In this document: piece after piece, positions 28,207 through 52,615 of the stretch | Layout: every line of letters begins with the position of its first letter | How positions within the stretch are numbered: the first letter of the stretch is position 1 | Assembly (NCBI GenBank): GCA_022763485.1 | Contig: JALEGX010000086.1 | Coordinates: forward strand, 1-64,000 | DNA: 64,000 bases | Direction of reading: 5' to 3' | From: Paracoccaceae bacterium | GTDB taxonomy: Bacteria > Pseudomonadota > Alphaproteobacteria > Rhodobacterales > Rhodobacteraceae | Translations under genes and position numbers: made by a program | The notes under the pieces: model-generated | Database searches by the model: none | Seen by the model: only the letters and a program-made list of their open reading frames with translations | What the model was told of the DNA's origin: nothing

Positions 28207-29648
28207 GTCGGCCTCGCATGGTTCAGGATGATCGATTTCGTCGCCAGATAGGCGGAGAGGCCAGCCAGCCCCTTTTCCCGCCCGATGCCCGAGTGTTTCA
28301 CGCCGCCGAATGGGACGGTGTCGCCACCGGTCAGGAAGCCATTGACGAAGACCTGTCCGGCCTCCAATCGGCGCGCCAGCCACAGGGCGGTGTCGTGGCT
28401 TTGCGTGTAGACACCGGCAACCAACCCATAAGGGCTGTCGTTTGCGATGCGCAGCGCGTCCTCCGCGTCATCACAAAGATGGGTCACCAGCACGGGGCCA
28501 AAGACCTCTTCCCGCGCGATTTCCGCCTCGGGCGGCACATCGGTGAAGATCGTGGGCGGGTAGAAATAGCCAGGCCGCTCCAAACGCGCGCCGCCCAGCG
28601 CACAGGTCATCCCTTGCCCTTTGGCCCGCTGCACGAACCCTTCGACCCGCGCAAGCTGTGCCGCAGACACCAGAGGCCCAAGCGCCGGGTCGTCCAACGG
28701 ATCGCCGACCCCCATCGCGCGTGTCTTCTGCGCCAGCTTGTCGACCAGCGCGTCATGTACACCCCGGGTACAGATCAGGCGCGACCCCGCGGCGCAAACC
28801 TGCCCGGCATTGAAGAAGATCCCGCGCATCACACCGTCTGCGGCGGCCTCCAGATCCGCGTCCTCCAACACGATCACCGGGGATTTGCCGCCCAGCTCCA
28901 GCGTCACGCCTGCCACCGGGACCGACGCCGCCTGCATCACCCTGCGGCCGGTTGTGGTAGACCCCGTGAAGGTCACATGGGCGATCTTCGGATATCCGGC
29001 CAACGCCGCGCCGACGTCACCGCCGCCCAGCACCACGTTGCAGGCACCGTCCGGCAGCCCCGCCTGCTTGGCAAGCCGCGCGACCTCAAAAGCCGAAAAC
29101 GGAGTGAGTTCCGACGGTTTGGCCACCACGGTTGCCCCCGCCGCCAAAGCCGGCGCCATGCCCCGGGCGAGTGTCGAAATCGGGTAGTTCCACGGCAGGA
29201 TATGCGCAGTGACGCCAACGGGTTCCGCAAGGGTCAGCGCCGTTTGATCCGGCCCCAGGGGGATCGTCTCCCCATTCAGCTTGTCACAGACCCCCGCGTA
29301 GAAGCGGAAGTAATCCGCGGCGCGCCCGACATCCCGCAGCGCCTGTGACAGGGGTTTGCCCACATTCGCGGCCTCTATCCGTGCAAGACGGTCGGCCTCC
29401 TGAGCGATCAGATCCGCCAGCCGCAAAAGCACCGCGGCACGCCGACCGGGCAATGTCCCAGCCCAGATCGGCAAGGCCGCGGCGGCAGAAGCGACGGCTT
29501 GCCCGACTTGGTCTTCAATCGCCTCACAAAACGGTTCAAGCGGGGTTTCGGTTGCGGGGTTGACCAGACCGCGCGCGGCCCCTTCACCGGGTTGCGGCTC
29601 TCCCCCGATCCACAGGCCGAGCTTAGCAGTCGAAACGGACACTGGCAT
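28203..29648 (-). CDS. Aldehyde dehydrogenase
   Basis: 481 aa; ILPWNYPISTLARGMAPALAAG, LELGGKSPVIVLEDADLEAA, NAGQVCAAGSRL. Confidence 0.9.
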   Translation of the reverse strand: MPVSVSTAKLGLWIGGEPQPGEGAARGLVNPATETPLEPFCEAIEDQVGQAVASAAAALPIWAGTLPGRRAAVLLRLADLIAQEADRLARIEAANVGKPLSQALRDVGRAADYFRFYAGVCDKLNGETIPLGPDQTALTLAEPVGVTAHILPWNYPISTLARGMAPALAAGATVVAKPSELTPFSAFEVARLAKQAGLPDGACNVVLGGGDVGAALAGYPKIAHVTFTGSTTTGRRVMQAASVPVAGVTLELGGKSPVIVLEDADLEAAADGVMRGIFFNAGQVCAAGSRLICTRGVHDALVDKLAQKTRAMGVGDPLDDPALGPLVSAAQLARVEGFVQRAKGQGMTCALGGARLERPGYFYPPTIFTDVPPEAEIAREEVFGPVLVTHLCDDAEDALRIANDSPYGLVAGVYTQSHDTALWLARRLEAGQVFVNGFLTGGDTVPFGGVKHSGIGREKGLAGLSAYLATKSIILNHARPT

Positions 29649-31189
29649 TACCCCCGCCCGATCTGCGCGCGCGTCAGGCGAATATCGAACTCTTCGCGCA
29701 ATCCCAGATCCAGATCATCCGGGATGTGCGACGGGAAGTGGCTGGCCAGGATCTCGCGCGCCCGTTCGCGGGCCACGTCTCCCACACGCTGCGCGCCGCT
29801 GTCCTGCCAGTCCCTTGGACTGCGCCGATCCCCCACTTCGGGATAGAAATAGTCGGACTTCATCCGGTCGAATGTATGGGTTTCCCCCAGATAGTGCCCT
29901 TCGCCCCGGCACACCTCTGCAATGACATCGGCGGCGATGTTTTCGGGCGTGGCTTCAACCCCGCGAATGGTCCGCAGGATATTGCCCAGCAGATCATTGT
30001 CGCTGACATAGGCCGCGTGGCTGACCCCCAGAAGCGAGGACATCATGCCCGCCGCCTGGGTCACGATGTTGGACCCGGCATGGGCCGCCATGGTCACCGC
30101 CAGCGATTTTTCGGCCCCGTATTGCGCGTCCAGCCGCTTGGCATCGGTGATCCCGGCAATGGAACTGGTGGGCAGGTCCCAGTGTCGGCCCATCTGCGCC
30201 GCGCCTGCCATCAGGATAGCCTGTTCTCCACCGCCGCCGCTCATCGATCCGGTGCGCAGATCGGCAACCAGGGGCTTCGGGGCAAAAATCGCCCGGACCT
30301 CCGGATCAACCAGCCGGGCAAAGACCAGTCCCGCCAGCGTTTCCGCCACGGCCTGGACCAGCGACCCGGCAATCGTGGCCGCGCTGGTCGCCCCCGCCTG
30401 TCCGGCGCTGATCAGTTGGACGGGGAAGCCAGCTCGGATCGCCAGTTCCAGCACATCGCAGGCCTCTTCTGCAAAGCGCATCGGCGGCACGACGTGACAG
30501 ACCATGACCGTCAGGAAGGGCCGCGCCCGAAACGCCGCTTCCCCGCCGGCGATCCGATAGCAGAGATCGGCAATCGCCTGCACGTTCAGCGGCTCGGTGA
30601 TCGAGATCGATACATGCTTCGACGTCCCCATCAGGCACGCATAGGCAGTGTTCAGATCCATCGCCGCGTTGTCTTCGATGTCCCGCGCCACGACCGAGCG
30701 GCTGAAATGGTGGATGTTGTCCATCTGATCCACGATGCGCGCCGCATCATAGAGATCCTGCAACGTCGAATCCCGATAGTCGTGGGTGTCCAGATCAAAC
30801 ACCCCCGGAGCCGCGCCCCCGGTGGACATATGCACCCGGGCGCCAGAGATGTTCAGATCATTCTCCCGTCGCTGCCCGCACAGCGCGAAGCCACGAGCCG
30901 CCCCATCGATGGCCCACTGAACCAGGGCCCGCGGAAAGAGCAGACGCTGATCGGCAGTCAGCGAGCCACCTGCCTCGACCACCATGTCGATCATCGAAGG
31001 TGTCGCCTGGCTCAAACCCAGCGTTTCCAGCAGGACAAAGGCACTTTCCTGAATCCGGACGACCTCTGCCTCTGACAGCGGCTTCAATCGCCCGCCTTCA
31101 ACTCCGGGCCAGACTGGTGGGTTTTCCTCAGGTGTTGCGACCTGTTGCAGGCGGTGTTTTCGCCCACGTCGCCGGGTGATTTCTGTCAT
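29648..31189 (-). CDS. Trimethylamine methyltransferase (MttB) superfamily protein, non-pyrrolysine type
   Basis: MttB-like body (STGGAAPGVFDLDTHDYRDSTLQDLYDAARIVDQMDNIHHFSRSVVARD...); uninterrupted ORF, no internal amber; ATG at 31189. Confidence 0.85.
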   Translation of the reverse strand: MTEITRRRGRKHRLQQVATPEENPPVWPGVEGGRLKPLSEAEVVRIQESAFVLLETLGLSQATPSMIDMVVEAGGSLTADQRLLFPRALVQWAIDGAARGFALCGQRRENDLNISGARVHMSTGGAAPGVFDLDTHDYRDSTLQDLYDAARIVDQMDNIHHFSRSVVARDIEDNAAMDLNTAYACLMGTSKHVSISITEPLNVQAIADLCYRIAGGEAAFRARPFLTVMVCHVVPPMRFAEEACDVLELAIRAGFPVQLISAGQAGATSAATIAGSLVQAVAETLAGLVFARLVDPEVRAIFAPKPLVADLRTGSMSGGGGEQAILMAGAAQMGRHWDLPTSSIAGITDAKRLDAQYGAEKSLAVTMAAHAGSNIVTQAAGMMSSLLGVSHAAYVSDNDLLGNILRTIRGVEATPENIAADVIAEVCRGEGHYLGETHTFDRMKSDYFYPEVGDRRSPRDWQDSGAQRVGDVARERAREILASHFPSHIPDDLDLGLREEFDIRLTRAQIGRG

Positions 31190-31268
31190 GGCGCCTGGAT
31201 TTCCGTGCTTTTCCGGGCAGAAAAGACCACGCCGATGCAAGCTTTACAAAGACAGCTTTCTCAGCAAA

Positions 31269-33076: not shown

Positions 33077-33194
33077 GGCATTTCAGGCATAGTTTTTCTA
33101 CGGTGAATTTTTAGCAAATCTGGTTTGTCAGGTCTATGCCTGCTCCGGGATGATGGCGGCATTCCTCATGTTTCAGCCCCAAGGACCCGTACCC

Positions 33195-34457
33195 ATGACC
33201 GCCCATTTTCAAACCCCTGTGTCCGAAACCGATCCGCTGATTGCCACCGCGCTGCGGGATGAAAAGACCCGGCAGCAGGATCAGATCGAGCTGATCGCCT
33301 CGGAAAACATCGTCAGCCGAGCGGTTCTGGACGCGCTGGGGCACGAGATGACCAACAAGACGCTGGAGGGCTATCCCGGCAACCGGTTCCACGGCGGCGG
33401 CCGCTACGTGGACGTCGTTGAACAGGCCGCCATCGACCGGGCGCGGCAAGTGTTCGGATGTGACCATGCCAACGTACAGCCGCATTCGGGCAGTCAGGCC
33501 AATCTGGCGGTGTTCTTTCTGCTCCTGAAACCCGGCGACCGGGTGCTGTCTCTGGATCTGGCTGCGGGCGGGCATCTGTCACACGGGTTGAAGGCCAACC
33601 TGTCTGGCCGCTGGTTTGACCCCCATCACTACGGCGTGGATGCTGAGACGGAGGTGATCAACTATGAGGATCTGGAACGCCAGGCCGCGCAGATCAAACC
33701 CCGGCTGATCATTGCTGGCGGCTCTGCCTATCCGCGCCAGATCGATTTCGAGCGCATGGGCCGGATCGCGCGCAAGGTCGGCGCATGGTTTCACGTCGAC
33801 ATGGCCCATATCGCCGGTCTGGTGGCGGGTGGTGAACATCCCAGCCCCTTCCCCCACGCGGATATCGTGACCTGCACAACCACAAAAACCCTGCGCGGCC
33901 CGCGTGGCGGGCTGATCCTGACCAACAACGCGGACTGGTCCAAACGGTTGCAGTCGGCGGTCTTCCCCGGCGTACAGGGGTCGATCCATACGCAGGTGCT
34001 GGCCGCCAAGGCGATCTGCCTGGGCGAGGCGCTGACTGATGACTTCCGCACCTATGCCGCGCAGGTCCGCGCCAATGCCCGCGCGCTGGCAGACACGTTG
34101 CAAGCGCGCGGTATCCGTATCGTGTCAGGCGGCACGGACACCCATCTGGTGCTGCTGGATCTGAGCTCCAAAGGCCTGACGGGCAAACGGGTGGAACGCG
34201 TGCTGGAGGCGGCGAACATCACCGCCAACAAGAACGCCATCCCCGGCGACAGCCCACGCCCGCCGGAATGGGTAGGCCTGCGCCTTGGCACCGGGGCCGC
34301 CACGACACGCGGCATGGCAGCCCCGGAATTCATCGAGCTTGGCACGATGATCGCCGATCTGGTCGAGGCAGAGGCCGCAGGCCACGCAGAGGAGGTGATC
34401 GCCCTCTGCAAAGCCCGCGTTGCGGCGCTCTGTGCCCGCTTTCCAGTCCACGCCTGA
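33195..34457 (+). CDS. glyA: Serine hydroxymethyltransferase
   Basis: QIELIASENIVSRAVLDALGHEMTNKTLEGYPGNRFHGGGRYVDVVE; VDMAHIAGLVAGGEHPSPFPHADIVTCTTTKTLRGPRGG. Confidence 0.93.
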   Translation: MTAHFQTPVSETDPLIATALRDEKTRQQDQIELIASENIVSRAVLDALGHEMTNKTLEGYPGNRFHGGGRYVDVVEQAAIDRARQVFGCDHANVQPHSGSQANLAVFFLLLKPGDRVLSLDLAAGGHLSHGLKANLSGRWFDPHHYGVDAETEVINYEDLERQAAQIKPRLIIAGGSAYPRQIDFERMGRIARKVGAWFHVDMAHIAGLVAGGEHPSPFPHADIVTCTTTKTLRGPRGGLILTNNADWSKRLQSAVFPGVQGSIHTQVLAAKAICLGEALTDDFRTYAAQVRANARALADTLQARGIRIVSGGTDTHLVLLDLSSKGLTGKRVERVLEAANITANKNAIPGDSPRPPEWVGLRLGTGAATTRGMAAPEFIELGTMIADLVEAEAAGHAEEVIALCKARVAALCARFPVHA

Positions 34458-34464: not shown

Positions 34465-35718
34465 TCAACCCTCCAGGCTCTTGATCGCCCCAAGCAGTTT
34501 GGCGATCTCGGTCTCGGTGTTGTAGTGGCAGAAGGAGATCCGGATGCAATCGGGCAGCCCCAGTGGAGTCAGCACATTGCCCGAATAGTGATCGGCCTTG
34601 CGGGTGTGGGTGCGGATGCCCTGGCTGTTCAGGATCTCCACAACCTGCTCGGACGGAGTGCCGTCCACCACGATCGACACCAGACCTTCGCGGGCGGGGT
34701 TATCCTCGCCCGCCAGGATCCGCACATGCGCCATCTCCCGCAGCCCCGGCAGGTTGTCGATACCGTTTATCGCGGCATTGGTCAGATGGGTTTCATAGGC
34801 ATGAATGGCCCGGCCTGCGGCTTCGATCCTCTTGCGCGGCTCGGTTTCATCCGACACTTCGCCGCCCAGCCAGTCAAAATACTCGATCACGTTCGACATG
34901 GTGGCATAAGAACCGGTGTCGCGCGTGCCGAACTCCCACCCCGTCGCGGGCGCGTCGATCAACATGTCATGGGGCGCCGCGCTCAACCGGTCCGAGATCC
35001 AGGCGATGCCGTAGCCATGGCGCGAGAACACCTTGTAGGGCGAAATCGCGTAGCCATCGACGTTATAGGCCGCCAGATCCAGCTGGCCATGGGCCGCGTG
35101 CTGGATGCCGTCCACGATGATCATACAGTCCGGCGCTACCGCGCGGATCGCGGCTGAAATCGCCGCCACATCCATGCCCATGCCGGTCACCGGTGAGGCG
35201 TGCAGGATCGTCGCCACCGCCACATCCGGGGTCATCAACGCGGTGTAATCCTCGGCGGTTACCAGGCCGGTTGCATCGTCATGCGGAACATTCACATAGT
35301 CCAGCCCGGCAATCCCGGCCCAGCGGCGCGCGGCGGAACGGGTGGCCGGATGTTCGATGGACGACCCGATCACCTTGGCCCCTTTGGGCGCGTTCACGCA
35401 GGCGGTGCGGATCAGGCGGAACAGCAGCTCAGTACCGCTTTCCCCGGCAAAGAACTGACCCGAGGAAGCGTTCATGAATACCGCCAGATCACCCTTAGCC
35501 TTGTTGATCACATTCTGCGTTCCCTGACCTGCCGGATTGATCCGGCCCGGATTATCGGGGATCGCGGCATAGAACGCCGAGGTTTCCGCTACCGATTTCA
35601 GGGTCAGCGCGCCGCCGGCGTTTTCGAAAAAGATCCGCTCGCCCTGAAACGGGCAGCTGTCCACATGCGCAAACCGGTCGCGAATAGCGGCGATAAGATC
35701 GGGATTGTTCTGAATCAT
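34465..35718 (-). CDS. Class V aminotransferase / cysteine desulfurase-like PLP enzyme
   Basis: FENAGGALTLKSVAETSAFY; IIVDGIQHAAHGQLDLAAYNVDGYAISPYKVFSRHGYGI (PLP-Lys region). Confidence 0.82.
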   Translation of the reverse strand: MIQNNPDLIAAIRDRFAHVDSCPFQGERIFFENAGGALTLKSVAETSAFYAAIPDNPGRINPAGQGTQNVINKAKGDLAVFMNASSGQFFAGESGTELLFRLIRTACVNAPKGAKVIGSSIEHPATRSAARRWAGIAGLDYVNVPHDDATGLVTAEDYTALMTPDVAVATILHASPVTGMGMDVAAISAAIRAVAPDCMIIVDGIQHAAHGQLDLAAYNVDGYAISPYKVFSRHGYGIAWISDRLSAAPHDMLIDAPATGWEFGTRDTGSYATMSNVIEYFDWLGGEVSDETEPRKRIEAAGRAIHAYETHLTNAAINGIDNLPGLREMAHVRILAGEDNPAREGLVSIVVDGTPSEQVVEILNSQGIRTHTRKADHYSGNVLTPLGLPDCIRISFCHYNTETEIAKLLGAIKSLEG

Positions 35719-35733
35719 GAGTCTTCCTGTCTG

Positions 35734-36747
35734 TCAGAGCGCGCGGCTCACAATCGTGCGGCAGAGTTCGGCCACCGCGATATGGCTGTTTCTTGGGAAA
35801 CCATCGACGCTGTCATCGACAATCCCGTGGGTCGAATTGATCAAACCATTGGCCACCATCGTGTCCAATAGCAAGGCCTCACGTTCGGGCGTGTGCAGCA
35901 GTTTGGAATTGCCTGCGCGCGCGGCCATCGCCGCCGCAATCGCGGTGCAACCCCAGTTCGAACAGGCCGCCGTCACCAGCACATCGCAGCCCGTGACCGC
36001 GCCGATGCCGCCACCGCAGCCGCATTGGCAAGTATCGCCATAGGGCACATGCGCCTTCACATGGTCGGCCACCTTGCCCATGCCGATCTCATTGCCACCA
36101 TCGCCGACCGCGACCACCGGAATGCCGCGCTCCAACGCCAGATCGAAAAGAAAATCCACCCGCGCCCGGCCCATGCCATAGTCGATGCCCTTCATCGAAT
36201 GGTAGACGCCAAATTCGTTGCGCCCCACCCGCTCGGTCGAAAACATCAGGTCCGGCTGCAGTTCGTCCAGCATCTGCACCGCTTGCGCCTTGCCGGTTTC
36301 GTCATCGGTGGCGTAGGGGATCATCACGATGGTGGCGAGGCTCTTATCCGCCTTGGCGATCGCCGCCTGCTCCAGCGTCACCGGGAACAGCCCCGCCGCC
36401 TGGCAGGTGTTGCGGATCGCGGGTAAAAGCGTTTCTTCGCAGACCATCACGCAGGTCACGTTGCGCGCTAGCACCAGCGCCCGCGCAATCGCCGCCGCGC
36501 CCGAGGGGCCGTCATTTTCCCCCAGATCCGTGGTGATCCAGGCGCGCGAGACGGACCCGGTGGTCAGCACCACCGTGCCGCCTTCAGGGACAGCCATCAG
36601 CGCATCCGCAGCCGCCCCCACGAGGGATTCCCCCTGAAGCGCACGCGCGGCTTCGAACAAATGCTCGACCCCGCGTTCGCCCATGTCGATCTTCACCAGC
36701 TGGTCCAGACGGTTGTCCAGACGGGTAATCAAATCCTTGTCGCCCAT
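35734..36747 (-). CDS. D-glutamate cyclase-like (DUF4392) protein
   Basis: VVLTTGSVSRAWITTDLGENDGPSGAAAIARAL; VVAVGDGGNEIGMGKV; CQCGCGGGIGAVTGCDVLVTAACSNWGCTAIAAAMAA. Confidence 0.72.
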   Translation of the reverse strand: MGDKDLITRLDNRLDQLVKIDMGERGVEHLFEAARALQGESLVGAAADALMAVPEGGTVVLTTGSVSRAWITTDLGENDGPSGAAAIARALVLARNVTCVMVCEETLLPAIRNTCQAAGLFPVTLEQAAIAKADKSLATIVMIPYATDDETGKAQAVQMLDELQPDLMFSTERVGRNEFGVYHSMKGIDYGMGRARVDFLFDLALERGIPVVAVGDGGNEIGMGKVADHVKAHVPYGDTCQCGCGGGIGAVTGCDVLVTAACSNWGCTAIAAAMAARAGNSKLLHTPEREALLLDTMVANGLINSTHGIVDDSVDGFPRNSHIAVAELCRTIVSRAL

Positions 36748-36761
36748 ATCAATAGTCTCCC

Positions 36762-36807
36762 GCCCGGCTGCAAGCCGGGCTGCGCCACCCTGCGGGGCGG
36801 CGCAGCC
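36762..36807. repeat. Two overlapping GC-rich hairpins in an intergenic gap
   Basis: GCCCGGCT-GCA-AGCCGGGC (36762-36780) and GGCTGCGCC-12 nt-GGCGCAGCC (36778-36807); arms overlap by 3 nt. Confidence 0.75.
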
Positions 36808-36843
36808 CTCAACGCCAGATTTTCAACAAGAGGAATAGCCATC

Positions 36844-37428
36844 TCACCCCTCCCCAAAAAGCAGTTCCGCGAACCAGTCCGGATCCTCCAGATGCGCCGC
36901 GACCTCGCGCAGCGCGCCGTGCAGACAGGCCGCCACCGCCGCCAACACCGCCTGAACGCCCGCCAGATCATGCACCTCTCGCACCGCGACCCCCGCCAGC
37001 CGCGCGCCGCGCAGGACCGAGGCATGGCTGCGGTCGCCCGCCGCCACCAGCGACAGCACCGGCTTGCCGCCGGAATGCGCCAGCACGGTCGCCACGATGC
37101 CCGCACTGGTGCGGTTGACCACTGCGGCGGCCTCGTGCCCCTGCCCGCCCAGGTGAGAGATCGCCGCCTGACGCAGCTCCTCGCCGAACAGGCCGGGGCC
37201 GATCCATTCCTCGCAATTGATGCTCAGATCCTCGGGCGTGGCCGGGTAGAACCGAAGGTTGCCGGTGCAGATCGCGATCCTGTCGATACCTTCGCGCGCC
37301 ACAAAATCCGCCGCCACCCGCCCCGCCTGTGTCAGACGGCGCACCTCATCGGCCGAGCCGCGCAGCAGCGATCCCCGGGCATAGCCCACGCCCGGGTCGA
37401 TTTCGTTGCCAAAGCGGTCTGCGCTCAT
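36844..37428 (-). CDS. Small uncharacterised protein with SelA/PLP-transferase-like N-terminal half
   Basis: 194-aa ORF from ATG 37428, in operon with upstream ALDH (4-nt overlap); segment VVNRTSAGIVATVLAHSGGKPVLSLVAAGDRSHASVLRGARLAGVAVREV. Confidence 0.6.
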   Translation of the reverse strand: MSADRFGNEIDPGVGYARGSLLRGSADEVRRLTQAGRVAADFVAREGIDRIAICTGNLRFYPATPEDLSINCEEWIGPGLFGEELRQAAISHLGGQGHEAAAVVNRTSAGIVATVLAHSGGKPVLSLVAAGDRSHASVLRGARLAGVAVREVHDLAGVQAVLAAVAACLHGALREVAAHLEDPDWFAELLFGEG

Positions 37429-38909
37429 CCATCCGCCTCGATATTGATGGTGATGCATTTACGGTAGGTATAGGCCTCCAGCGCGCCTTCGATCGAATAT
37501 TCGCTGCCCATGCCCGACTGTTTGGTGCCACCATAGGACATGCCCGGGATCTGCCCCCCGCCCTGGTTCACCTGGATCCAGCCCGCATCAATGGCGCGGG
37601 TCAGGCGGGTGATCCGGCTGACGTCATGGGTGAACAGGAAGGCCGCCAACCCGTAATGGGTATCATTTGCCATTTCGATCACGTCCGACTCGGACTCAAA
37701 CGGGATCGCGACCATGACCGGGCCGAACACCTCCTCGCGCGAGATGCGCCAGCTGTTGTCCACCCCGGTGAGGATGGTCGGGTTCGGACAGAAGCCCGCC
37801 GGATCCTCGGCCGGGGTCTCGCCAATCAGGAACTGTGCTCCTTCAGCCTCCGCCTCGGCGACAAAGCCGCGGATCTCGCCATAGCGTTCGGCGTTCACCA
37901 CCGCGCCCATATCGACGTCAGGATCCAGCGCGTCGCCCACGTTCAGAGCAGCGGATTTTTCCGCCACCTTGGGCATCAGCACATCCCAGATGTCGCGATG
38001 CACGAACAGGCGCGAACCTGCGGTACAGCTTTGCCCCTGCCGCATGAAGCGCATGGCGTTGGCCACCTGCTGTGCGGTCGCGTCCAGGCGTCCGTTTTCG
38101 ATGGCGTCGGGGAAGACGATGGTGGGCGACTTGCCGCCCAGTTCCAGCGTCAGGTTGGCGATGCGGTCCGCCGTCACCTTGCCGATCAGCTTGCCCACCT
38201 CGGACGAGCCGGTAAAGGACACCTTGTCCACGCCCGGATGCGCCACCAGCGCGGCGCCAGCCTCTTCGCCCACGCCCGTCACCACGTTGAACACGCCCGG
38301 CGGGAACAGCCCGTCGGCCAGCTCCGCCAGCTTCAGGATCGCCAGCGGCGCGTCCTCGGCAGGTTTCAGCACCAGGCAGTTGCCGGTCGCCAGCGCCATC
38401 GAGATCTTGACCGCGCCCAGCTGCAGGGGCGAGTTCCACGGGATGATCGAGCCGACAACGCCATGGGGTTCACGCGTCGAATAGCTGAGGATGCCGGGAC
38501 CCAGCGGCAGGGTCTCGCCCTTCTGCTCGACCGCGACGCCGCCATAGTATTTCAGCACGCCCGCCGCGCCCATCGCTTCGCCCCGCGACTGGGTTTTGAT
38601 GGCATTGCCGGATTCCGCCGCCAGCACGCGCGCGACCTCCTCCGCGTTCTCCTCCAGCCGACGGCCGAGCTCGCTCAGCAGCCTGCCACGCTCGCTCGCC
38701 GCCAGAGCACGCCACGCCGGCAGCGCGGCACGGGCGGCGTCGACAGCCAGAGAGACCTCCGTCGCCGTGCCGCGACCGACCTCGCAAATCGGTTCGCGGC
38801 GCGAGGGGTTTTCGACTACCAGCCGACCTTCCGGCCAATGCCAGGCCCCGTTGATATAGCTACCGGCCAGGCCCGCCCCGGGCAGTTTCGGTTCCAGCAA
38901 TGCACCCAT
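37425..38909 (-). CDS. Aldehyde dehydrogenase
   Basis: 494 aa; IIPWNSPLQLGAVKISMALATGNCLVLKPAED, LELGGKSPTIVFPDAI, RQGQSCTAGSRL. Confidence 0.9.
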   Translation of the reverse strand: MGALLEPKLPGAGLAGSYINGAWHWPEGRLVVENPSRREPICEVGRGTATEVSLAVDAARAALPAWRALAASERGRLLSELGRRLEENAEEVARVLAAESGNAIKTQSRGEAMGAAGVLKYYGGVAVEQKGETLPLGPGILSYSTREPHGVVGSIIPWNSPLQLGAVKISMALATGNCLVLKPAEDAPLAILKLAELADGLFPPGVFNVVTGVGEEAGAALVAHPGVDKVSFTGSSEVGKLIGKVTADRIANLTLELGGKSPTIVFPDAIENGRLDATAQQVANAMRFMRQGQSCTAGSRLFVHRDIWDVLMPKVAEKSAALNVGDALDPDVDMGAVVNAERYGEIRGFVAEAEAEGAQFLIGETPAEDPAGFCPNPTILTGVDNSWRISREEVFGPVMVAIPFESESDVIEMANDTHYGLAAFLFTHDVSRITRLTRAIDAGWIQVNQGGGQIPGMSYGGTKQSGMGSEYSIEGALEAYTYRKCITINIEADG

Positions 38910-38923
38910 GATCCAGCCCTTCC

Positions 38924-40300
38924 TTACATCCTGGCCCTGACGACCGCCCAGGCGTCATCCAGCGCGCCCTTGAAGCGGTCCGCCGCGATGTCGATTTCGT
39001 CGTCGTTGATGATCAGCGGCGGCATGAAGCTCATCCGGTCGCCGATCGCCCGCAGATACAACCCTCGGTCATGAGCAAAGTTCTGCACAAGCTCGCCCAC
39101 TTTCCAAGCCGGATCAAACGGCACCCGCGTCTTGGCATCCTTCATCAGCTCAAAGCCGCAGAAGAGGCCCACGCCGCGCACCTCGGCCACCAGCGGGTGA
39201 TCCGACATGCCATAACAGCGCTCCAGAAAGCGTTTCGAGACCTTGCGCACATGGCCCACCAGGTCGATCTCGTCATAGATGTCCAGCGCCTCCAGCCCGA
39301 CAGCCGCGCCCACCGGGTGACCCGCATAGGTGTAGCCGTGGCCGAAGGTGCCGACCTCGTCCGAGTTCTTCATCATGTCCGCATACATCTCGTCCTTGAA
39401 CATCAGGGCCGAGATCGGGAAGAACGCCGCCGACAGTGCCTTGGCGCAGGAGATCATGTCCGGCTCCAGCCCCCAGGTCTGCGATCCCCACATGTTGCCG
39501 GTCCGGCCAAAGCCGCAGACGACCTCGTCGGCCAGCAGCTTGATGTCATATTTGCGCAGGACGGCCTGCATCTCTTTCCAGTAACCCTCCGGCGGCATCA
39601 GCGCCCCCCCGCCCGAGATCGCAGGCTCCGCAAAGAACGCCGCAACCGTCTCAGGACCTTCCGCCAGGATCAGCTTTTCGAACTCGCAGGCCATCCGGGC
39701 CGAGAACTCCTCTTCGCTCTCCCCATCGATATGGAAGCGATAATAGTTGGGCAGCTCGGTATGCTTGAACTCAGGCAAAGGCAGGCCGAACTTGGCGTGC
39801 ATATGCGGCTGGCCCGACAGCGACACGGTGGCAATAGTATTGCCGTGATAGCCCCGCACACGGCCGATGATCTTGCGCCGGTTCGGCTCCCCCTTGGCGG
39901 TGTTCGTGTACCACAACAGCTTGATCGCCGTGTCATTTGCTTCGGACCCCGAGCATTGGAACATCACCCGGTTCATACCGCCGGGCGCCATGTTGATCAG
40001 ACGCTCCCCCAGCTCCGCCACCCGCGGATGCGACCGGTTGTAGAAGGTCGGCGCAAAGGGCAGCACATCCATCTGGCGCTTCGCCGCATTGGACAGGCGT
40101 TCATTGTGATAGCCCAGCGACACGCAGCCCAGACCCGAAAACCCGTCAATGATCTCGCGCCCTTCGCTGTCATAGATGAACACGCCCTTGCCGTGGGTGA
40201 TCATGGTTGGCCCCTGTTCGGCATGCTGGCGCAGGTTGGATTGCGGATGCACGTGGTGGGCTTTGTCCTGCTCGATCGAGCGGCTGACATCGACGTTCAT
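38924..40300 (-). CDS. Class III aminotransferase (omega-aminotransferase-like)
   Basis: GVFIYDSEGREIIDGFSGLGCVSLGYHNERL; LLADEVVCGFGRTGNMWGSQTWGLEPDMISCAKALSAAFFPISAL. Confidence 0.88.
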   Translation of the reverse strand: MNVDVSRSIEQDKAHHVHPQSNLRQHAEQGPTMITHGKGVFIYDSEGREIIDGFSGLGCVSLGYHNERLSNAAKRQMDVLPFAPTFYNRSHPRVAELGERLINMAPGGMNRVMFQCSGSEANDTAIKLLWYTNTAKGEPNRRKIIGRVRGYHGNTIATVSLSGQPHMHAKFGLPLPEFKHTELPNYYRFHIDGESEEEFSARMACEFEKLILAEGPETVAAFFAEPAISGGGALMPPEGYWKEMQAVLRKYDIKLLADEVVCGFGRTGNMWGSQTWGLEPDMISCAKALSAAFFPISALMFKDEMYADMMKNSDEVGTFGHGYTYAGHPVGAAVGLEALDIYDEIDLVGHVRKVSKRFLERCYGMSDHPLVAEVRGVGLFCGFELMKDAKTRVPFDPAWKVGELVQNFAHDRGLYLRAIGDRMSFMPPLIINDDEIDIAADRFKGALDDAWAVVRARM

Positions 40301-40375
40301 TTCTGGCTCCGAAGGAATGTGTTTCGGCGATTTCACATCCCCCTTGACTGAGAATCAATCTCGAAGTTTTCTCGA

Positions 40376-40392
40376 TTTGATGAACCAAATTC
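40376..40392. promoter_or_regulatory. Shared promoter motif copy 2 (TTTGATGAACCAAATTC)
   Basis: 14/17 identity to TTTGATGAGTAAAATTC at 47901-47917; contains ATTTG-N6-CAAAT (40375-40390); between divergent aminotransferase and lysR. Confidence 0.55.
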
Positions 40393-40404: not shown

Positions 40405-41331
40405 ATGAAACCACGCCTTGACCTGCGCCACCTGCAACTGATCCAGGCTATCATACAGACCGGGCGGATCACCGATGCGGCCAAAATGCTGGGCGTCACC
40501 CCATCAGCGCTGTCACACCGCCTGCGCGAGGCCGAACGGCGGCTGGACGTGCCGCTGTTCACCCGGATGCACAAGAAGCTGCGCCGCACCCCGGCGGCGG
40601 ATTACATGGCCGTGGTGGCCGAACGGATCCTGTCCGATCTCAGCCGCGCCGAAGAGGACGTGCGCCGCATGAACGCCAACGTGCAGCACGTGGTGCGCCT
40701 GTCGGTCGAGGCCTACAGCAACTATCGCTGGCTGCCCGCCTTCATCAAGTTCCTGAAATCCCGCACCGATGGCATCGACCTGCAGATCATGGCGGGTGCA
40801 CGCAGCGATCCGCTCAACGGGGTGCTGAACCGGCATATCGACATCGCCGTGATGTCCGGCACCGTTGCCCAGGCCGGCTTGCGCAGCCTGCCCCTGTTCG
40901 AAGATCCCCTGCTGTACATCATGTCGCCCACGCACCGGCTGGCCGACCGCGACTTCGTTGAAGGGGCCGATATCGTGGGTGAGCCTTTCATCACCTACAC
41001 CAAGGTGCCGGAGCCGGATCGCGAATTTGCCCTGCTCTTCCGCCCCACCGACAGCTACCCGAAATGGGCCGCCACGGTGGAGCTGCCCGAGGCAATTGTC
41101 GAGCTTGTGGCCTCCGACCTTGGCACCAGCGTGCTGTCGAACTGGGCCTTGCAGACCGCGCTCAAGGAAGGCCGGATCGTCGGCGCGCGCGTCACCCGGG
41201 ACGGCATCTCCGTGCCCTGGTGCGCCGCCATCCGGGCCGAAGACATGGAGGACGGCGACCCGATCTACCTGGTCGCGCAGCTCCTGTCAGAATGGTGCAG
41301 CCTGCCGGATGCGGGGTTTCACAAGGTCTGA
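40405..41331 (+). CDS. LysR family transcriptional regulator
   Basis: LDLRHLQLIQAIIQTGRITDAAKMLGVTPSALSHRLREAERRLDVPLFTRMHKKLRRTPAADYM. Confidence 0.9.
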   Translation: MKPRLDLRHLQLIQAIIQTGRITDAAKMLGVTPSALSHRLREAERRLDVPLFTRMHKKLRRTPAADYMAVVAERILSDLSRAEEDVRRMNANVQHVVRLSVEAYSNYRWLPAFIKFLKSRTDGIDLQIMAGARSDPLNGVLNRHIDIAVMSGTVAQAGLRSLPLFEDPLLYIMSPTHRLADRDFVEGADIVGEPFITYTKVPEPDREFALLFRPTDSYPKWAATVELPEAIVELVASDLGTSVLSNWALQTALKEGRIVGARVTRDGISVPWCAAIRAEDMEDGDPIYLVAQLLSEWCSLPDAGFHKV

Positions 41332-41339: not shown

Positions 41340-43755
41340 CTAGCCGCGCGCCCGTGACATGTCCGGATCATGGAAAGGGCGCAGGCTGGCCTGCGCCTTG
41401 ACCGCGCGGCCATTGACCATCACCTCGAAATCGCCCGCCGCCAGATCCTTGAGCGTCATGCCTTCGGGTCGGGCCACATAGCCCAGTCCGACCGCGCCAC
41501 CCACGGTCCACCCGTAGGAGGCAGACGTCAGCCGCCCGACAATCTTGCCGTCCCGCAGGACCGGTTCCTTGCCAAAGATCAGCGCCTCCGGGTCCTCCAG
41601 TCGGAAACACAGCAAACGACTGCTCGTAACATTGGCTTTTCGCGCCTCGATGGCCGGTTTCCCGGTGAACTCGGTCGCGAAATCGCAGGCGAAGGTCAGA
41701 CCGCTTTCCACCGGGCCGTCGAAGGGCCCGATGTCATGCCCCCAGTGGCGGAAGCCCTTTTCGATCCGACAGGAATCCACCGCCATGCCACCACACAGGC
41801 GCGGCGCGTCCTCGGCGGCCATCAGCGTCTCAAACACCTGCTGCGCGAACTCCGCCGGGACATGCAGTTCCCAACCCAGCTCGCCCACATAGGTGATCCG
41901 CTGCGCCCGCACCGGCGCATGTCCCACATGCAGGTTCTGCCAGGTGCCAAAGGGGAAGGCCTCGTTCGACAGATCCGCGCCTGTAAGTGCGGTCAGGAAG
42001 TCGCGCGACCGCGGCCCCATCACCGCCAGCGTCGCCTCGCCCGCTGTCACGTTCACCACGCTGACGCCGGATCCCTCGACACCGGATTTCAGCCAGCTTT
42101 CGGTCTGCGGTTCGGCCCCGGCCGAGGCCATCACCAGATAGCGCGTCGCAGACAGGCGCGCGACGGTCACATCCGCCTCGATCCCCCCTTTGTTCGTTGA
42201 ACATATGGGTATAAACCAGCGCGCCGGGCGCCACGGCCATATCGGCGCCGCAAAGCTTTTGCAGCTGCGCCTCAGCCCCTGCCCCGTCCAGAATGAACCG
42301 GCCAAAGGTCAGGTCGATCAGCCCCAGATCATTGCGCAGCGCCTCGTGCTCCGCTTTCCAGTCGTCAAACCACGGCTCGCGCCCGAACCCATCGGTCATC
42401 TCGCGCCCGTAATACAGGGGCCGTTCCCAGCCATTGGCGCTGCCGAACTGCGCGCCCGCATCCCGCAGTTGCGTATAGTACGGCGTGCGGCGCAGACCGC
42501 GCGCTTGCGATTTGCGCAAGTAAGGCCAGTGCATTGCATAGGCGTGGCCCAGCGTTTCCGCCGCCTTGGTCGCGGTGTAGCTGCGCGCGTTCAGACCCGG
42601 CACGATGCGACGTGAATCCACATCCGTCAGGTCCATGGTCATATGGCCGTACATGATCCATTCGGCCAGCGCCTTGCCCGCGCCCGGCCCGTTCTGGATG
42701 CCCGTAGAGTTGAAGCCCGCAGCGACCCAATAGCCTTTCACATCGGTGATCGGCCCCAGATAGTGTTTCGCATCAGGCGTAAAGCACTCCGGCCCGTTAA
42801 AGAACTTGCGAATACCGGATTCTGCCAACGCCGGAACCCGCTCCATCGCTGCCTCAAGAATGGGGTAGAGGTGTTCCTCGTCACAGGGCAGCTCATCAAA
42901 CTCAAAGCTCTCCGGCAGGCCGTTTTCGGGCAGCCAGGGCGTGGCATTAGGTTCCGAGCAGCCGATCAGCAGCTTGCCCGCGTCTTCCTTGTAATAGGCG
43001 TATTCATCCATCACCCGCAGCACCGGCAGGTCGCCGGTGACGCCTTCGATGGGGTCGGTGACGACATAGTAGTGGTTGGTGTAGTGCAGCGGGATCTGCA
43101 CGCCGTGGGTCAGCCCGAATTCGCGCGCCCACATGCCGGTGGCGTTGACCACATGCTCGGCACGGATCAAGCCCTGTTCGGTTTCCACACCCACCGCGCG
43201 GCCACCTTCGATCACCACACGGCTGACAAGGGTATCTTCGAAAATCTGCGCCCCGTTCATGCGCGCGCCCTTGGCCAGCGCCATGGTGGTGTCGATGGGG
43301 TTGGTATAGCCGTCACCGGGAAACCAGAACGCGCCTTTGGCGCCGTCGATGGACAACAAGGGCCAACGCTCCTGCGCCTCGGCCAGCCCGATCTCCTCGG
43401 CACGGATGCCACAGCCATGGGCGTAGTCCACCTTGCGCCGCAACTCTTCCATCCGCGCATCATTCAGGGCCACGGTCATCGAACCATTGCGCTTGAAGCC
43501 GGTGTTCTGGCCGGTCTCGTCCTCAAGGGCTTCCATCAGGTCGAGGCCGTATTTCGCCAGCGCCGTCATCACCGGCACGCCCTGTGTTTCGCTGACCAGA
43601 CCAGCCGCGTGCCAGGTGGTGCCGGAGGTCAGCTTCTTGCGTTCCAAAAGCGCCACCGACCAGCCCGCCTTGGCGAGGTGATAGGCCGTCGCACAGCCAA
43701 CGATGCCACCGCCGATGATGGCAACCTGAACGTCTGTGGGCAGGGGTTTGGTCAT
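41340..43755 (-). pseudogene. DAO-GcvT fusion FAD oxidoreductase interrupted by a 1-nt frameshift (true pseudogene or assembly error)
   Basis: N-terminal part in ORF 41830..43857 (start ATG 43755), C-terminal part in ORF 41340..42305; frames join at a C6 run at 42183-42188. One fewer C restores ...YTHMFNEQRGIEADVTVARLS... Confidence 0.85.
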
Positions 43756-43759
43756 GCTT

Positions 43760-46177
43760 CTACCCCCGCAGCCGTTCATTCTCGGGATCATAAAACGGCA
43801 CCGTCGCAACAGTCGCCTTGACCGGCACGCCCAGCACTTCGATCTCGTAGACATCACCCGGATTGGACGGCTCGGTCAGATAGCCCAACGCGATCCGCTT
43901 GCCGATGCGGAACCCCGTCCCGCCCGAACTGACATAGCCCACCGGCGCACCGTCCCGGCAGATCGGGCTTGAGGACAGCGCATCCGCGCCATGCCCCTCC
44001 AGCACAAAGGCGGTGAAGTGGTATGCCTTCTCCTGATCCGCCTGCGCCAGAAACGCATCGCGGCCCACAAAGCTCTCTTTTGACTTGCTGACGAACCGCT
44101 CCAGACCCGCATCAAACGCACTGTATTCTATCCCGAAGTCCGCGCCCCAGCCGTGATAACCTTTTTCCAGGCGCATCGCGTTCAACCCGTAGGATCCGAA
44201 CTCAACCATGCCCTTGTCGGCGCCCTGCTTCATGATCGCCTCGTAAACGGCAACCAGATCGTCGCTGCGCAGATGCAGCTCCCAGCCCAGCTCGCCCACA
44301 TAGGACACCCGCAGCGCAATCACCGGCGCACCGGCGATGGTGATCTCGCGCACTGACATCCAGGGGGCCGCCTCTTTCGACAGGTCATCGTCGGTCAACG
44401 GCTGCAGCACGTCGCGTGATTTCGGACCCATCACCATCAGCGCCGCGTCAAACTCAGACCCGCGCGTCAGCGTCACGCCCTCCTCAGGCAGGAATTTGGA
44501 CATCCAGTCGTGGTCGCGCTGATCGGCCAGCGTCGGGCCACACAGCAGGTATTTCTCCTCGCCCAGACGCGCGATCGTCGCCTCGGACCAGACCTTGCCC
44601 TTGGGCGTCAGCATGTAGGACAGCTTGACCCGACCCACCTTTGGCATCGCGCCACAGAACACTTCGTTCAGGAACTCGGTCGCCTTCGGCCCCTCAACCT
44701 CGTAGCGGGTGAAACCGCCGTGATCCATCACACCCACATTGTCGCGCACGCCTTCGCACTCGGCCTTGACCGCATCATGCCAGCATTCATGATGGAAACT
44801 CAGCGCACCATCATTCTTGATCGCATCCGTCTCAAACCAGAACGCCCGCTCCCAACCGGCAACCTGACCAAACTGGGCACCATTCGCTTTCAGCCTGTCA
44901 TAAAGCGGCGTGGTCTGGACCGGACGCGCCGATGCCCACAGGCGGTGCGGGTAAGGGATCGCATACTGGTTTTCATAGAGCTCGCTCGACCGTTTGACGG
45001 TGTAATCAAACGTCGCCCAGTCTTCACCAAAGCGGCGCGGATCCCAGAAGGACATGTCCCATTCGGTCTCGCCCTCGGTGATCCATTCGGTCAGCGTCTT
45101 CGCCGCCGCAGCCGAATGGGTGATGCCAACCGGGAAGCAGCAGGCATGATAGAAGTTCGGCAGACCGAACGCGGGACCGCACAGCGGCGCGCCATCGGGG
45201 CTATAGGGGATCGGGCCGTTCACGAAGCGGCTCACACCTGCCTCGCCCAATAGCGGCACATGCTCCAGAGCGGCCTCGAGAATTTCGGCGATGTCATCAA
45301 CGCTGTCGGGGTAAAGCTGGTTGGCAAAGCAATCCGGCATCCCGTCCAGCCACGCGGGGCGGCCTTCGTGCCCATAGGACCCCAGTAGCAGCCCGTTCCG
45401 CTCGCGGCGCAGGTAGTACATGATGTCCGGATCACGGACGAGCGGGAAGTTCTCCGGGTTCGCTTCCAGTTCCGGCAGGCTGTCGGTCACCAGATACTGG
45501 TGCTCAAGCGTGACGACGGGCAGTTTTTGCCCCACCATCTCGCCCACCACGCGGCCATAGTAGCCACCGGCGTTGATCACGATGTCACAGACCACATTGC
45601 CCTTGTCGGTCACAACCTCCCACTCACCTGACGGGCGGCGGTTGATGCCGGTGACCTGGGTAAAGCGCGCGATTTCAGCGCCCAGATCCCGCGAGCCTTT
45701 GGCAAGGGCCTGGGTCAACTGCGAGGGGTCAACATCGCCTTCATAGGGGTCCAGAATACCGCCGATGATGCTGTCGCCCGAGCTGAAATAGGGGTGCATG
45801 TCGTCCATCTCGGACGGGGTCAGGAGGCCCATGTCATATCCCAGCCCCTTGGAGATGCCCACCAGATGGCGGAACAGGTCCATACGTTCTTCGGTATGGG
45901 CAGGCCAGAAGGCGCCAGTGTGGCGGTAGGTGATCGGGTAATCCACCTCCTCAGCCAGATCCTTGTAGAGCCGCCAGGCATAGTTGCCCGCGCGCATCCC
46001 GCCCCAGCTGTTGGCGTAGGTCGGGATGTTGCCCGCCGCATGCCATGTCGACCCGCTGGTCAGTTCGTTCTTTTCAATTAGCAGCGTATCGGTCACGCCC
46101 GCCTTGGCCAGGTGATAGAGGGTCGACACGCCAACCGCACCGCCCCCGATAATGACAACTTTGGCTTGGGTTTTCAT
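43760..46177 (-). CDS. DAO-GcvT fusion FAD oxidoreductase (dimethylglycine/sarcosine dehydrogenase-like)
   Basis: MKTQAKVVIIGGGAVGVSTLYHLAKAGVTDTLLIEKNELTSGSTWHAAGNIPTY; C-terminal GCV_T domain. Confidence 0.88.
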   Translation of the reverse strand: MKTQAKVVIIGGGAVGVSTLYHLAKAGVTDTLLIEKNELTSGSTWHAAGNIPTYANSWGGMRAGNYAWRLYKDLAEEVDYPITYRHTGAFWPAHTEERMDLFRHLVGISKGLGYDMGLLTPSEMDDMHPYFSSGDSIIGGILDPYEGDVDPSQLTQALAKGSRDLGAEIARFTQVTGINRRPSGEWEVVTDKGNVVCDIVINAGGYYGRVVGEMVGQKLPVVTLEHQYLVTDSLPELEANPENFPLVRDPDIMYYLRRERNGLLLGSYGHEGRPAWLDGMPDCFANQLYPDSVDDIAEILEAALEHVPLLGEAGVSRFVNGPIPYSPDGAPLCGPAFGLPNFYHACCFPVGITHSAAAAKTLTEWITEGETEWDMSFWDPRRFGEDWATFDYTVKRSSELYENQYAIPYPHRLWASARPVQTTPLYDRLKANGAQFGQVAGWERAFWFETDAIKNDGALSFHHECWHDAVKAECEGVRDNVGVMDHGGFTRYEVEGPKATEFLNEVFCGAMPKVGRVKLSYMLTPKGKVWSEATIARLGEEKYLLCGPTLADQRDHDWMSKFLPEEGVTLTRGSEFDAALMVMGPKSRDVLQPLTDDDLSKEAAPWMSVREITIAGAPVIALRVSYVGELGWELHLRSDDLVAVYEAIMKQGADKGMVEFGSYGLNAMRLEKGYHGWGADFGIEYSAFDAGLERFVSKSKESFVGRDAFLAQADQEKAYHFTAFVLEGHGADALSSSPICRDGAPVGYVSSGGTGFRIGKRIALGYLTEPSNPGDVYEIEVLGVPVKATVATVPFYDPENERLRG

Positions 46178-46217
46178 AAGCTTTTCCACGCGATTAGGAG
46201 CGCGCCTGACCCTGGGT

Positions 46218-46276
46218 GGGCGCTTTTGCGCCCTCCCGTGGGGAGGGTCGGGCGCGGTCCGGCCTGCCGCCGGACC
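46218..46276. repeat. Three consecutive GC-rich hairpins between mttB-like and gcvT-fusion genes
   Basis: GGGCGC-TTTT-GCGCCC (46218-46233); CCCTCCC-GTG-GGGAGGG (46231-46247); GGTCCGGC-CTGCC-GCCGGACC (46256-46276). Confidence 0.75.
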
Positions 46277-46315
46277 AACTGGTGTTTGTTGAGTGTGTAC
46301 ATCGTTGTTCCCTAC

Positions 46316-47827
46316 CTAGCGGTCGCTCGGCGGCAGCCGGATCGGCAGACGCGCGCGCAGGGCGGCTTCGACATCTGCGGGCAGGTGGGTCGGCGCAGGC
46401 TGCGCCTCGATTTCGGCGACGCGGGCGATGGCCCTGTCCCAGACGGTCTGCGCACCGCTGTCCAGCCAGTCGTTCACGCTTTGGCGGTCGCCCAGCTTGG
46501 GATAGACATATTCCTTGGTCATCAGGTCCAGCGTCTGCGCGGTACCAAGAAAGTGCCCCTCGCCCGTCACCACCTCTTCGATCATGTCCAGATCAATCGA
46601 GCCTTCGAACATCTCGACCCCACGCACCGAGCGCAGGATCGCGCCGCACATGTCGTTGTCGATCACCAGCGCTTCCTTGCTGGCCGCCATGATCGACCCC
46701 AACATGCCCACCGACAGGTTGATCATGTCAGCCCCGCCCTGCGCGGCGAGTGCGATGGTATAGCCCTTTTCATATCCCGACTGCGCATCTGCGGTCTTGG
46801 CGTCGGTCATGCCCGCAGACACGGTCGACGGCAGGCCCAGGTTCAGCAGCAACTGCGCGGCGGCGGCGTTGGCCACTGCGGCCTCGCCCGAGCCACCGGT
46901 CATAGCGCCGGTCCGCAGGTCGGAAATGAACGGCAGGAACGCGAGGATACAGGGAAAGCCCGGCTGCATCATGTTGACCAGCACCAGACCGGCCAGCGAT
47001 TCCGCCAGTCCCTGTGCCAAGGCACCGGCCAGCGAGGCCGGGCTGGTCGCGCCCGCCTGCGCAGCGGAACAGATCTGCAGCGGCATCCCCAGACGCACGC
47101 ATTCGAACATCACGCCGCAGGCTTCCTCGGCCAGGGTCAGCGGCGGCACCACATGGCAAACCGAGGCGAAGCAGAACGGCTGAGCGCGGAACCGCCCTTC
47201 ACCACCCAGCGCGTGGTCGAACATATCGACGATGGGCACCACGTTCGCAGGCTCGAAAAAGCTGGTGCCGATGGGCTTCGAGGTCGCCTTCATCGCGGCA
47301 AAGGCGGTGTTGATGTCCAGCGTCAGAGGATCCTCAAGATCCCGCGCCACGACCGGGCGCAGGGAGTAGTGGATACTGTCGCAAGCGTCCACGATGCGCA
47401 TCAGCCCATAGAGATCCTGCAAGGTACTGTCGCGAAATCCATTTGTCGCCGCATCAAGCACCTGTACTGCCGCGCCGCCGGTGCCGATATGCACCTTGCC
47501 ACCGCCCACCTCGATCCCGCGGTCACGAAGGTAACCGGGCAACTCGACCCGCTTGCACGCCTTGGCGATCATGTCCTCGACAAGCGGTCTCGGGAAGGTG
47601 ATCCGCCCGTCCGCACGCGCAACAGCACCATTATTCAGCGCCAGTTCCCGAATGTCTTCAGGCGCTTGCGACACGCCGATCCGTTCCAGGATCTGAAACG
47701 CGGTGTCGGTGATATGGGCCAGCTTGGCGTCTTCCAACGGTCTGAACCGCCCCCCGATCGGAGGCTGGGTTAGTTCAAGCACCGCTGAGTTGCCGCCGCG
47801 TTTCATTCTTGTTCGCCGCATGGGCAC
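46316..47827 (-). CDS. Trimethylamine methyltransferase (MttB) superfamily protein, non-pyrrolysine type
   Basis: GTGGAAVQVLDAATNGFRDSTLQDLYGLMRIVDACDSIHYSLRPVVARDLED; clear paralog of 29648..31189; start could be 47827 or 47806. Confidence 0.85.
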   Translation of the reverse strand: MPMRRTRMKRGGNSAVLELTQPPIGGRFRPLEDAKLAHITDTAFQILERIGVSQAPEDIRELALNNGAVARADGRITFPRPLVEDMIAKACKRVELPGYLRDRGIEVGGGKVHIGTGGAAVQVLDAATNGFRDSTLQDLYGLMRIVDACDSIHYSLRPVVARDLEDPLTLDINTAFAAMKATSKPIGTSFFEPANVVPIVDMFDHALGGEGRFRAQPFCFASVCHVVPPLTLAEEACGVMFECVRLGMPLQICSAAQAGATSPASLAGALAQGLAESLAGLVLVNMMQPGFPCILAFLPFISDLRTGAMTGGSGEAAVANAAAAQLLLNLGLPSTVSAGMTDAKTADAQSGYEKGYTIALAAQGGADMINLSVGMLGSIMAASKEALVIDNDMCGAILRSVRGVEMFEGSIDLDMIEEVVTGEGHFLGTAQTLDLMTKEYVYPKLGDRQSVNDWLDSGAQTVWDRAIARVAEIEAQPAPTHLPADVEAALRARLPIRLPPSDR

Positions 47828-48240: not shown

Positions 48241-50658
<2,418 letters not shown>

Positions 50659-50838
50659 TCAGGGCTTCCCTTGTGATTTTGCTGACTTATACGCGTCAGA
50701 CGGGGGATTGTCACCCTTTTGACATAAGTTTAGCGGCGCGGATTCAGCAGGAAATCGCGGACAGAGCCGGCCCCTCTGCACCGCCCGAAACAATGCGCTG
50801 TCAAAGGGTCCGCCCTTTGCGTCTGGGCAGAAATGGGA

Positions 50839-51459
50839 TCAGGTCAAAAGGACCAGAACCGCCACCCCCAAGAGGAGCACACCCGACACCACGTTCAGGC
50901 GGCGACGTGCCCCTGCCGAGGTGATCAGATGCCGCGTGCGGTCGACAAAAGCGGCGAAGCACAGGTTTCCCAGCAAAGGCACAACGAAAGACAGTACGAC
51001 GATGGCCAGCATGTCGGCACCACCGACCCCGGACAGGTCAAAGAAGCCGGGCAGCACGCCCATGTAGAACAGGATCGCCTTGGGGTTTCCAAGGATCACC
51101 GCAACCCCGGCGGTGAAGCCTGCAATCCGGCCAGGGCGCAGCAACGCTGGGTTCTCCTGCACCCCTGCTCCGGCCGCCCTGATCTGAACGATCCCAAGCA
51201 CGGCAAAGATCAGCGCCGCCAGCCACTTGAGGCCGGTCAGCACACCGTCCACTTCGGCCCCGATCCAGCTGATGCCGAGGATCGCAACCAGGGGCCAGAC
51301 AATGTCCCCCACGGCCACGCCGACCGCTAGGGGCCATGCCGCTTCGAAGCCGCCGGACACTGCCCGTGCGATCAGCGCCAGCCAGACTGGCCCCGGTGTC
51401 AGGAACAGGATGAACAGCGCCCCGGCATAGAGCGCAAGATCCCAGGCTGTAACGGTCAT
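50839..51459 (-). CDS. LysE family translocator
   Basis: 206 aa; LFLTPGPVWLALIARAVSGGFEAAWPLAVGVAVGD; start overlaps the recF stop by 4 nt. Confidence 0.82.
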   Translation of the reverse strand: MTVTAWDLALYAGALFILFLTPGPVWLALIARAVSGGFEAAWPLAVGVAVGDIVWPLVAILGISWIGAEVDGVLTGLKWLAALIFAVLGIVQIRAAGAGVQENPALLRPGRIAGFTAGVAVILGNPKAILFYMGVLPGFFDLSGVGGADMLAIVVLSFVVPLLGNLCFAAFVDRTRHLITSAGARRRLNVVSGVLLLGVAVLVLLT

Positions 51460-52553: not shown

Positions 52554-52615
52554 TCGATTGGCCCCCTCATCATCGTGTACAAAGTGCCTGAATCACCGAA
52601 CAGAACGACGCGCGC

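Follow-up and report, generated by a model that had tools for sequence, protein, structure and literature searches.

Class III aminotransferases and aldehyde dehydrogenases (ALDHs) act together in the degradation of omega-amines, as in the routes for 2,4-diaminobutyrate (ectoine degradation), gamma-aminobutyrate, beta-alanine and taurine. In the glycine betaine route of the marine Roseobacter Ruegeria pomeroyi, MtgBCD, the first methyl group is removed by an MttB-family protein working with a shared corrinoid protein, and the later demethylations are of the flavin adenine dinucleotide (FAD)- and folate-dependent dimethylglycine dehydrogenase (DMGDH) type (PMC12478193). A third enzyme family, DUF4392, has a mammalian relative, DGLUCY, that converts D-glutamate into 5-oxo-D-proline (PMC5339696). 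Here we describe a locus that brings these families together, centred on a five-gene operon at positions 34465-40300 of a 64,000-nt stretch of DNA (the window; positions 1 to 64,000 of contig JALEGX010000086.1) from the Paracoccaceae bacterium assembly GCA_022763485.1. The locus is real, conserved and apparently undescribed; its general type, that of MttB/DMGDH loci for quaternary-amine degradation, is familiar, while its lower pathway is unusual. Searches of open-access full text, a scope that takes in few subscription papers, turned up neither a description of it nor a characterised pathway that matches, which supports the proposal of an earlier note on this DNA that the operon encodes a dedicated amine catabolic pathway matching no known route.

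Coordinates and family assignments bear out the five tightly packed minus-strand genes and divergent LysR-family regulator gene (40405-41331, plus strand) that the same note had read from the sequence. From the regulator inwards, the operon encodes AT3, a class III omega-aminotransferase of the PRK06105 subfamily (38924-40300, 458 residues); an ALDH (37425-38909, 494 residues) with catalytic Cys295 and Glu256 placed by motif; a SelA-like pyridoxal 5′-phosphate (PLP) protein of 194 residues (36844-37428), whose gene overlaps that of the ALDH by 4 nt; a DUF4392 or GLUCM-like_C protein (35734-36747, 337 residues); and AT5, a class V PLP enzyme (34465-35718, 417 residues) with a predicted PLP lysine, Lys229, in an SPYK motif. 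A Pfam scan placed Aminotran_3, Aldedh, GLUCM-like_C (237.8 bits, E 2e-70) and Aminotran_5 well over their cut-offs and gave no match for the 194-residue protein, which has a weak NCBIfam TIGR03576 match covering just the first third of the profile. AT3 scores 611.8 bits against NCBIfam NF004767 (cut-off 517), with its predicted PLP lysine, Lys287, in place by motif. By curated family cut-offs, AT5 is not a cysteine desulfurase (98 bits against a cut-off of 475 for SufS, 69 against 494 for CsdA and 161 against 352 for TIGR01976).

The earlier note would have taken the absence of this gene order from every other genome as a refutation. Instead, 13 further assemblies, which represent at least six named Roseobacter genera, have the order LysR / AT3-ALDH-SelA-DUF4392-AT5 intact, and the recurrence of both order and divergent regulator argues against a chance arrangement. 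The 13 are made up of ten loci (L011-L015, L017, L019-L022), a Leisingera locus split over two contig pieces (L018 and L045) and two plasmid-borne copies, from Alisedimentitalea and strain M382. L016 is a contig fragment whose SelA protein is identical to that of L015, and apparently duplicate records (L008/L017, L009/L016, L019/L056, M382 plasmid/G810) were counted once. In the relatives, ALDH orthologs are 88-94% identical and AT5 orthologs, in the same position, 85-91%, and the regulator is conserved along with the operon at 83-91%. Column conservation further reveals a 52-column operator-like block between the LysR and AT3 genes (40336-40387, minus strand), 33 columns of which are invariant across 13 sequences; it has one match within the window, where none is expected, and in the other loci examined it occurs in the same place only. 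The locus is nevertheless rare and patchy among scattered marine bacteria, being found in 4 of 150 genomes of the family (this one included), 2 of 289 in the class and 1 of 399 in the phylum.

While the operon itself is as first described, the unit is larger: three adjacent minus-strand genes (41340-47827), overlooked in the earlier note, accompany it in 13 of 13 assemblies in two different arrangements. The first encodes an MttB-family methyltransferase (46316-47827, 503 residues; Pfam MTTB, E 9e-102) with no in-frame stop and hence of the non-pyrrolysine type. It is followed by DMGDH2 (43760-46189, 809 residues), a DMGDH/sarcosine-dehydrogenase-like protein with FAD and folate domains and NCBIfam matches of the soxA, GcvT and ThiO types, and by DMGDH1 (41340-43755), an FAD oxidoreductase with a GCV_T-type half. 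Both DMGDH genes adjoin the operon in relatives, on either side of it (the other side in Ruegeria), and in 10 of 11 genomes the block runs straight on into an MttB ortholog (82-93% identical); in Leisingera this ortholog lies on the continuing contig.

Because an MttB gene and two DMGDH-like genes adjoin the operon, a trimethylated amine is suggested as the type of substrate. On balance we favour a role for the locus in the LysR-controlled catabolism of a trimethylammonio compound, probably bearing an amino-acid group, in which the five genes form the lower half of an eight-enzyme set. Going by what is known of the families, the MttB-family enzyme would take off one methyl group first and load it onto a corrinoid protein, and the two DMGDH-like flavoenzymes would pass the remaining two onto tetrahydrofolate, so that R-CH2-N(CH3)3+ becomes R-CH2-NH2; one MttB and two DMGDH-type enzymes are an exact fit to three demethylations. 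AT3 would then convert R-CH2-NH2 into R-CHO, and the ALDH would oxidize this to R-COOH. More speculatively, the SelA-like and DUF4392 proteins, of the PLP and Mn types respectively, might act on R-COOH, perhaps by elimination and lactam opening or closing, and AT5 might complete breakdown of the carbon skeleton.

The proposed pathway begins like the MtgBCD route, with an MttB-family first demethylation and DMGDH-type later ones. Unlike MtgBCD and the dimethylglycine and sarcosine dehydrogenases, however, demethylation is followed here by an omega-aminotransferase, an ALDH and SelA-like, DUF4392 and class V enzymes, and the product would not simply be glycine; the MttB of the window also belongs to a different paralog clade. 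The passage from amine through aldehyde to acid, with the same two enzyme families encoded in one operon, is shared with the omega-amine routes, which lack the SelA-like, DUF4392 and class V genes downstream and the demethylation unit upstream. As in DGLUCY and archaeal TON_0340, the DUF4392 protein carries PF14336, and it retains all six acidic metal ligands (E77, D79, E172, D216, E220 and D315) listed for TON_0340 (PMC5132392). In contrast to DGLUCY, it contains no DUF1445, PF14336 being its sole Pfam domain, and it sits in an amine-catabolic operon, where its link to D-glutamate is the family name only.

A related core, apparently undescribed as well, is found in soybean rhizobia, Paraburkholderia caffeinilytica and Caballeronia NK8, arranged as LysR / dehydrogenase-ALDH-DUF4392-SelA-DUF4392 (L026, L028, L029, L033). 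These rhizobial-type cores are plasmid-borne and concentrated in soybean symbionts (Bradyrhizobium elkanii, Sinorhizobium fredii); in S. fredii CCBAU 45436 the annotation splits the SelA stretch into individual hypothetical proteins. The ALDH (63%), SelA-like (54%) and DUF4392 (58%) proteins are orthologous to those of the window, whereas a 3-hydroxyisobutyrate-type dehydrogenase replaces the aminotransferase, amino-acid ATP-binding cassette (ABC) transporters flank the core where annotated, and there are two DUF4392 genes, of which the second is the window ortholog and the first only about 28% identical. The diverged locus L010 has MttB-DMGDH2 beside a 3-hydroxyisobutyrate-type dehydrogenase, an ALDH (75%) and a SelA gene (60%) in which its contig ends. 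Since the ALDH-SelA-DUF4392 core is conserved and would be entered from an amine in Roseobacters but from an alcohol in rhizobia, gene content suggests that the two forms converge on one and the same acid or on similar ones. We tentatively raise the possibility, which we hold to be short of probable, that these three enzymes make up an undescribed catabolic core acting on an acid that stems from a trimethylated amine in marine Roseobacters and from an alcohol in soybean rhizobia, and that in it a SelA-type PLP enzyme and a metal-dependent DUF4392 enzyme carry out in tandem a step new to amino-acid catabolism. If this were true, both orphan families would gain their first function in bacteria. 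As to chemistry, the intact metal site, the activity of DGLUCY and oxoprolinase-type genes close to related genes elsewhere provide a weak hint of lactam chemistry for the SelA-like/DUF4392 step: L032 has a SelA-like gene (41%) beside genes for a class V enzyme, an ALDH, class III aminotransferases and hydantoinase/oxoprolinase proteins, and oxoprolinase-type genes also lie near a distant DUF4392 gene.

The copy in the window carries two lesions. Its 194-residue SelA-like protein, previously taken for an orphan PLP half protein, gave that impression because the gene has lost its middle. Full-length relatives (12 related loci in sequenced genomes) have 420-423 residues, and the window protein consists of residues 1 to about 163 (76-88% identical to relatives) joined to the last 31 or so; nucleotide comparison shows that exactly 678 nt are missing, with the frame kept, at about position 487 of the open reading frame (ORF), and puts the junction near 36941. 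A family of “half” SelA proteins was rejected, as every relative has about 420 residues, and the gene is full length in the two other genomes of the same genus that were examined. By alignment, the protein is what a deletion has left of a full-length SelA-like PLP enzyme of the TIGR03576/MJ0158 type. MJ0158 (PDB 2AEU; E 3e-35), itself without known function, is the sole relative of the full-length enzyme with a solved structure, and a full-length relative falls short of the TIGR03576 equivalog cut-off (165 versus 304 bits). The deleted part holds an Asp-Lys motif (ADKAG in relatives) that is shared with MJ0158 and aligns with its DK; on the pattern of SelA-type motifs, this lysine is the predicted PLP lysine, missing from the window copy. 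An AlphaFold model of the enzyme (mean predicted local distance difference test score 55.9) was not used. Between the remnant and the DUF4392 gene, at a point where the genes of relatives abut, comparison reveals a 96-nt segment (36748-36843, no strand) with two adjacent strong, perfect-looking hairpins; it is single-copy in the genome, and no multi-copy repeat that could be its source was found genome-wide. The second lesion is a +1 frameshift in DMGDH1 near 42191-42194, a single-base insertion in an A3G6 run relative to L019 and L021, which divides the gene into ORFs 41830-43755 and 41340-42305; intact orthologs have 802-806 residues.

With a deletion in the SelA-like gene and a frameshift in DMGDH1, the pathway probably does not work in this genome as assembled. 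One or both of the lesions could instead be sequencing or assembly artefacts; if both are, the living strain would have an intact pathway. The assembly is of draft quality (161 contigs, 93% complete), the frameshift sits in the A3G6 run, the SelA-like deletion keeps the frame exactly and the remaining operon genes look constrained: the ratio of nonsynonymous to synonymous substitution rates against L019 is about 0.06-0.13 for the window genes, indicating that the operon is under purifying selection (the L034 ALDH row of this output is an ungapped misalignment and was excluded). However, the deletion is flanked by no long repeat that could collapse in assembly, just a few bases of microhomology, and the extra 96-nt segment after the remnant looks like a real local rearrangement, so that we consider artefacts a rather unlikely explanation. 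The remnant is also closer to Ruegeria (L013, 88%) than to the congener L019 (77%), whereas AT3 and the ALDH are roughly equally close to both, which suggests recombination inside the operon.

Catabolism of a trimethylammonio compound is supported by L010, which despite its divergence still groups MttB, DMGDH2, ALDH and SelA, and by a second MttB-ALDH-AT3-DMGDH-DMGDH set within the window. Further support comes from the gene order shared by 13 assemblies with MttB and both DMGDH genes in attendance, the glycine betaine precedent in R. pomeroyi, the operator-like block, the purifying selection against L019 and the ALDH, SelA-like and DUF4392 orthologs of the rhizobia. Several observations weigh against it. 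The MttB and DMGDH genes form a transcription unit separate from the AT3 operon, and a search upstream of the MttB unit found no second operator-like site; no transporter adjoins the unit in the window genome; L010 has an alcohol-type dehydrogenase, not AT3, beside MttB; and the rhizobial form has no MttB or DMGDH genes, so that the core as such does not depend on methylated substrates. The sequences directly show the gene content, the gene order, their conservation and intact catalytic motifs; pathway and substrate are proposed from these. Alternatively, the five genes could make up a route of their own whose substrate is an unmethylated amine or amino acid, such as a D-amino acid or a diamine, the MttB and DMGDH genes being merely co-localized. 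Separate transcription, the position of the DMGDH genes on the other side of the operon in Ruegeria and the rhizobial core would all suit such a pathway, but the company kept by MttB and both DMGDH genes in every one of the 13 assemblies, across two arrangements, and the persistence of MttB-DMGDH2 beside ALDH-SelA even in L010 make it unlikely.

Genes further upstream bear on the identity of the trimethylammonio compound. A Dpp-type ABC transporter lies 5′ of MttB in 8 of the 13 clusters and a HalD-like iron/2-oxoglutarate enzyme in 5 of the 13; the window genome has no close ortholog of either, and its MttB gene is preceded by gyrB, dnaN and dnaA. The HalD-like enzyme was dropped as a core step on account of this distribution. 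Transporter similarity was likewise set aside as a guide to the substrate, the Dpp-type binding protein having distant PDB relatives only and the rhizobial binding protein being nearest to assorted amino-acid-binding proteins. An N-omega-trimethylated diamino acid (such as N6-trimethyllysine, also called laminine, or trimethylornithine), yielding 2-aminoadipate or glutamate after the ALDH, would fit the sequence of quaternary amine, omega-aminotransferase and ALDH, the lysine halogenases and hydroxylases that are the nearest weak PDB matches of the HalD-like enzyme and the amino-acid transporters around the rhizobial core, but it is distinctly improbable, as lysine, ornithine and glutamate need no SelA-like or DUF4392 enzymes, 8 of the 13 clusters lack the HalD-like gene and the transporter similarity is too weak for ligand assignment. 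Other substrates weighed were rhizobitoxine-like compounds, the head groups of betaine lipids, trimethyltaurine and 2-aminoethylphosphonate in trimethylated form, and none accounts for all genes. The window genome also encodes a free-standing B12-binding ORF of 269 residues (G000:C5), at most a candidate MtgC.

Methylated amines are a large marine pool of nitrogen and carbon. Roseobacter genomes have 3-7 MttB matches each, and we know of no substrate for most of these paralogs; the locus links one MttB clade to a full candidate route that has a regulator and an operator-like site of its own. DUF4392, whose mammalian relative metabolizes D-glutamate, and SelA-like proteins of the TIGR03576 type likewise gain a testable context, while the occurrence of a related core in soybean rhizobia, on symbiotic plasmids, suggests that bacteria of the sea and those associated with plants encounter compounds of related chemistry.

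AT5 has paralogs (60-67%) elsewhere in Roseobacters. Two of their contexts adjoin an 805-residue FAD-dependent oxidoreductase, and one contains an Asp/Glu-racemase-family gene and a D-amino-acid-dehydrogenase-like gene. On Leisingera plasmids (L048, L051) a close AT5 paralog occurs with a TAXI-TRAP transporter and with D-amino-acid-dehydrogenase-like and Asp/Glu-racemase-family genes, the 805-residue oxidoreductase being annotated beside it in L048. A serine hydroxymethyltransferase gene next to AT5 in the window (33150-34457) was dropped as a member of the system, not being a conserved neighbour. At its other end the locus adjoins gyrB, dnaN and dnaA (48241-55430), which probably puts it near the origin of chromosome replication; close relatives, by contrast, carry the locus on a plasmid. 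The second parallel set in the window, MttB, ALDH, a HemL-like class III aminotransferase and two DMGDH-like genes, spans 17382-31240 and probably serves to degrade another quaternary amine; it is followed by genes for an amidase, a sulfoacetaldehyde-acetyltransferase-like thiamine pyrophosphate enzyme and a TcuA-like flavoprotein.

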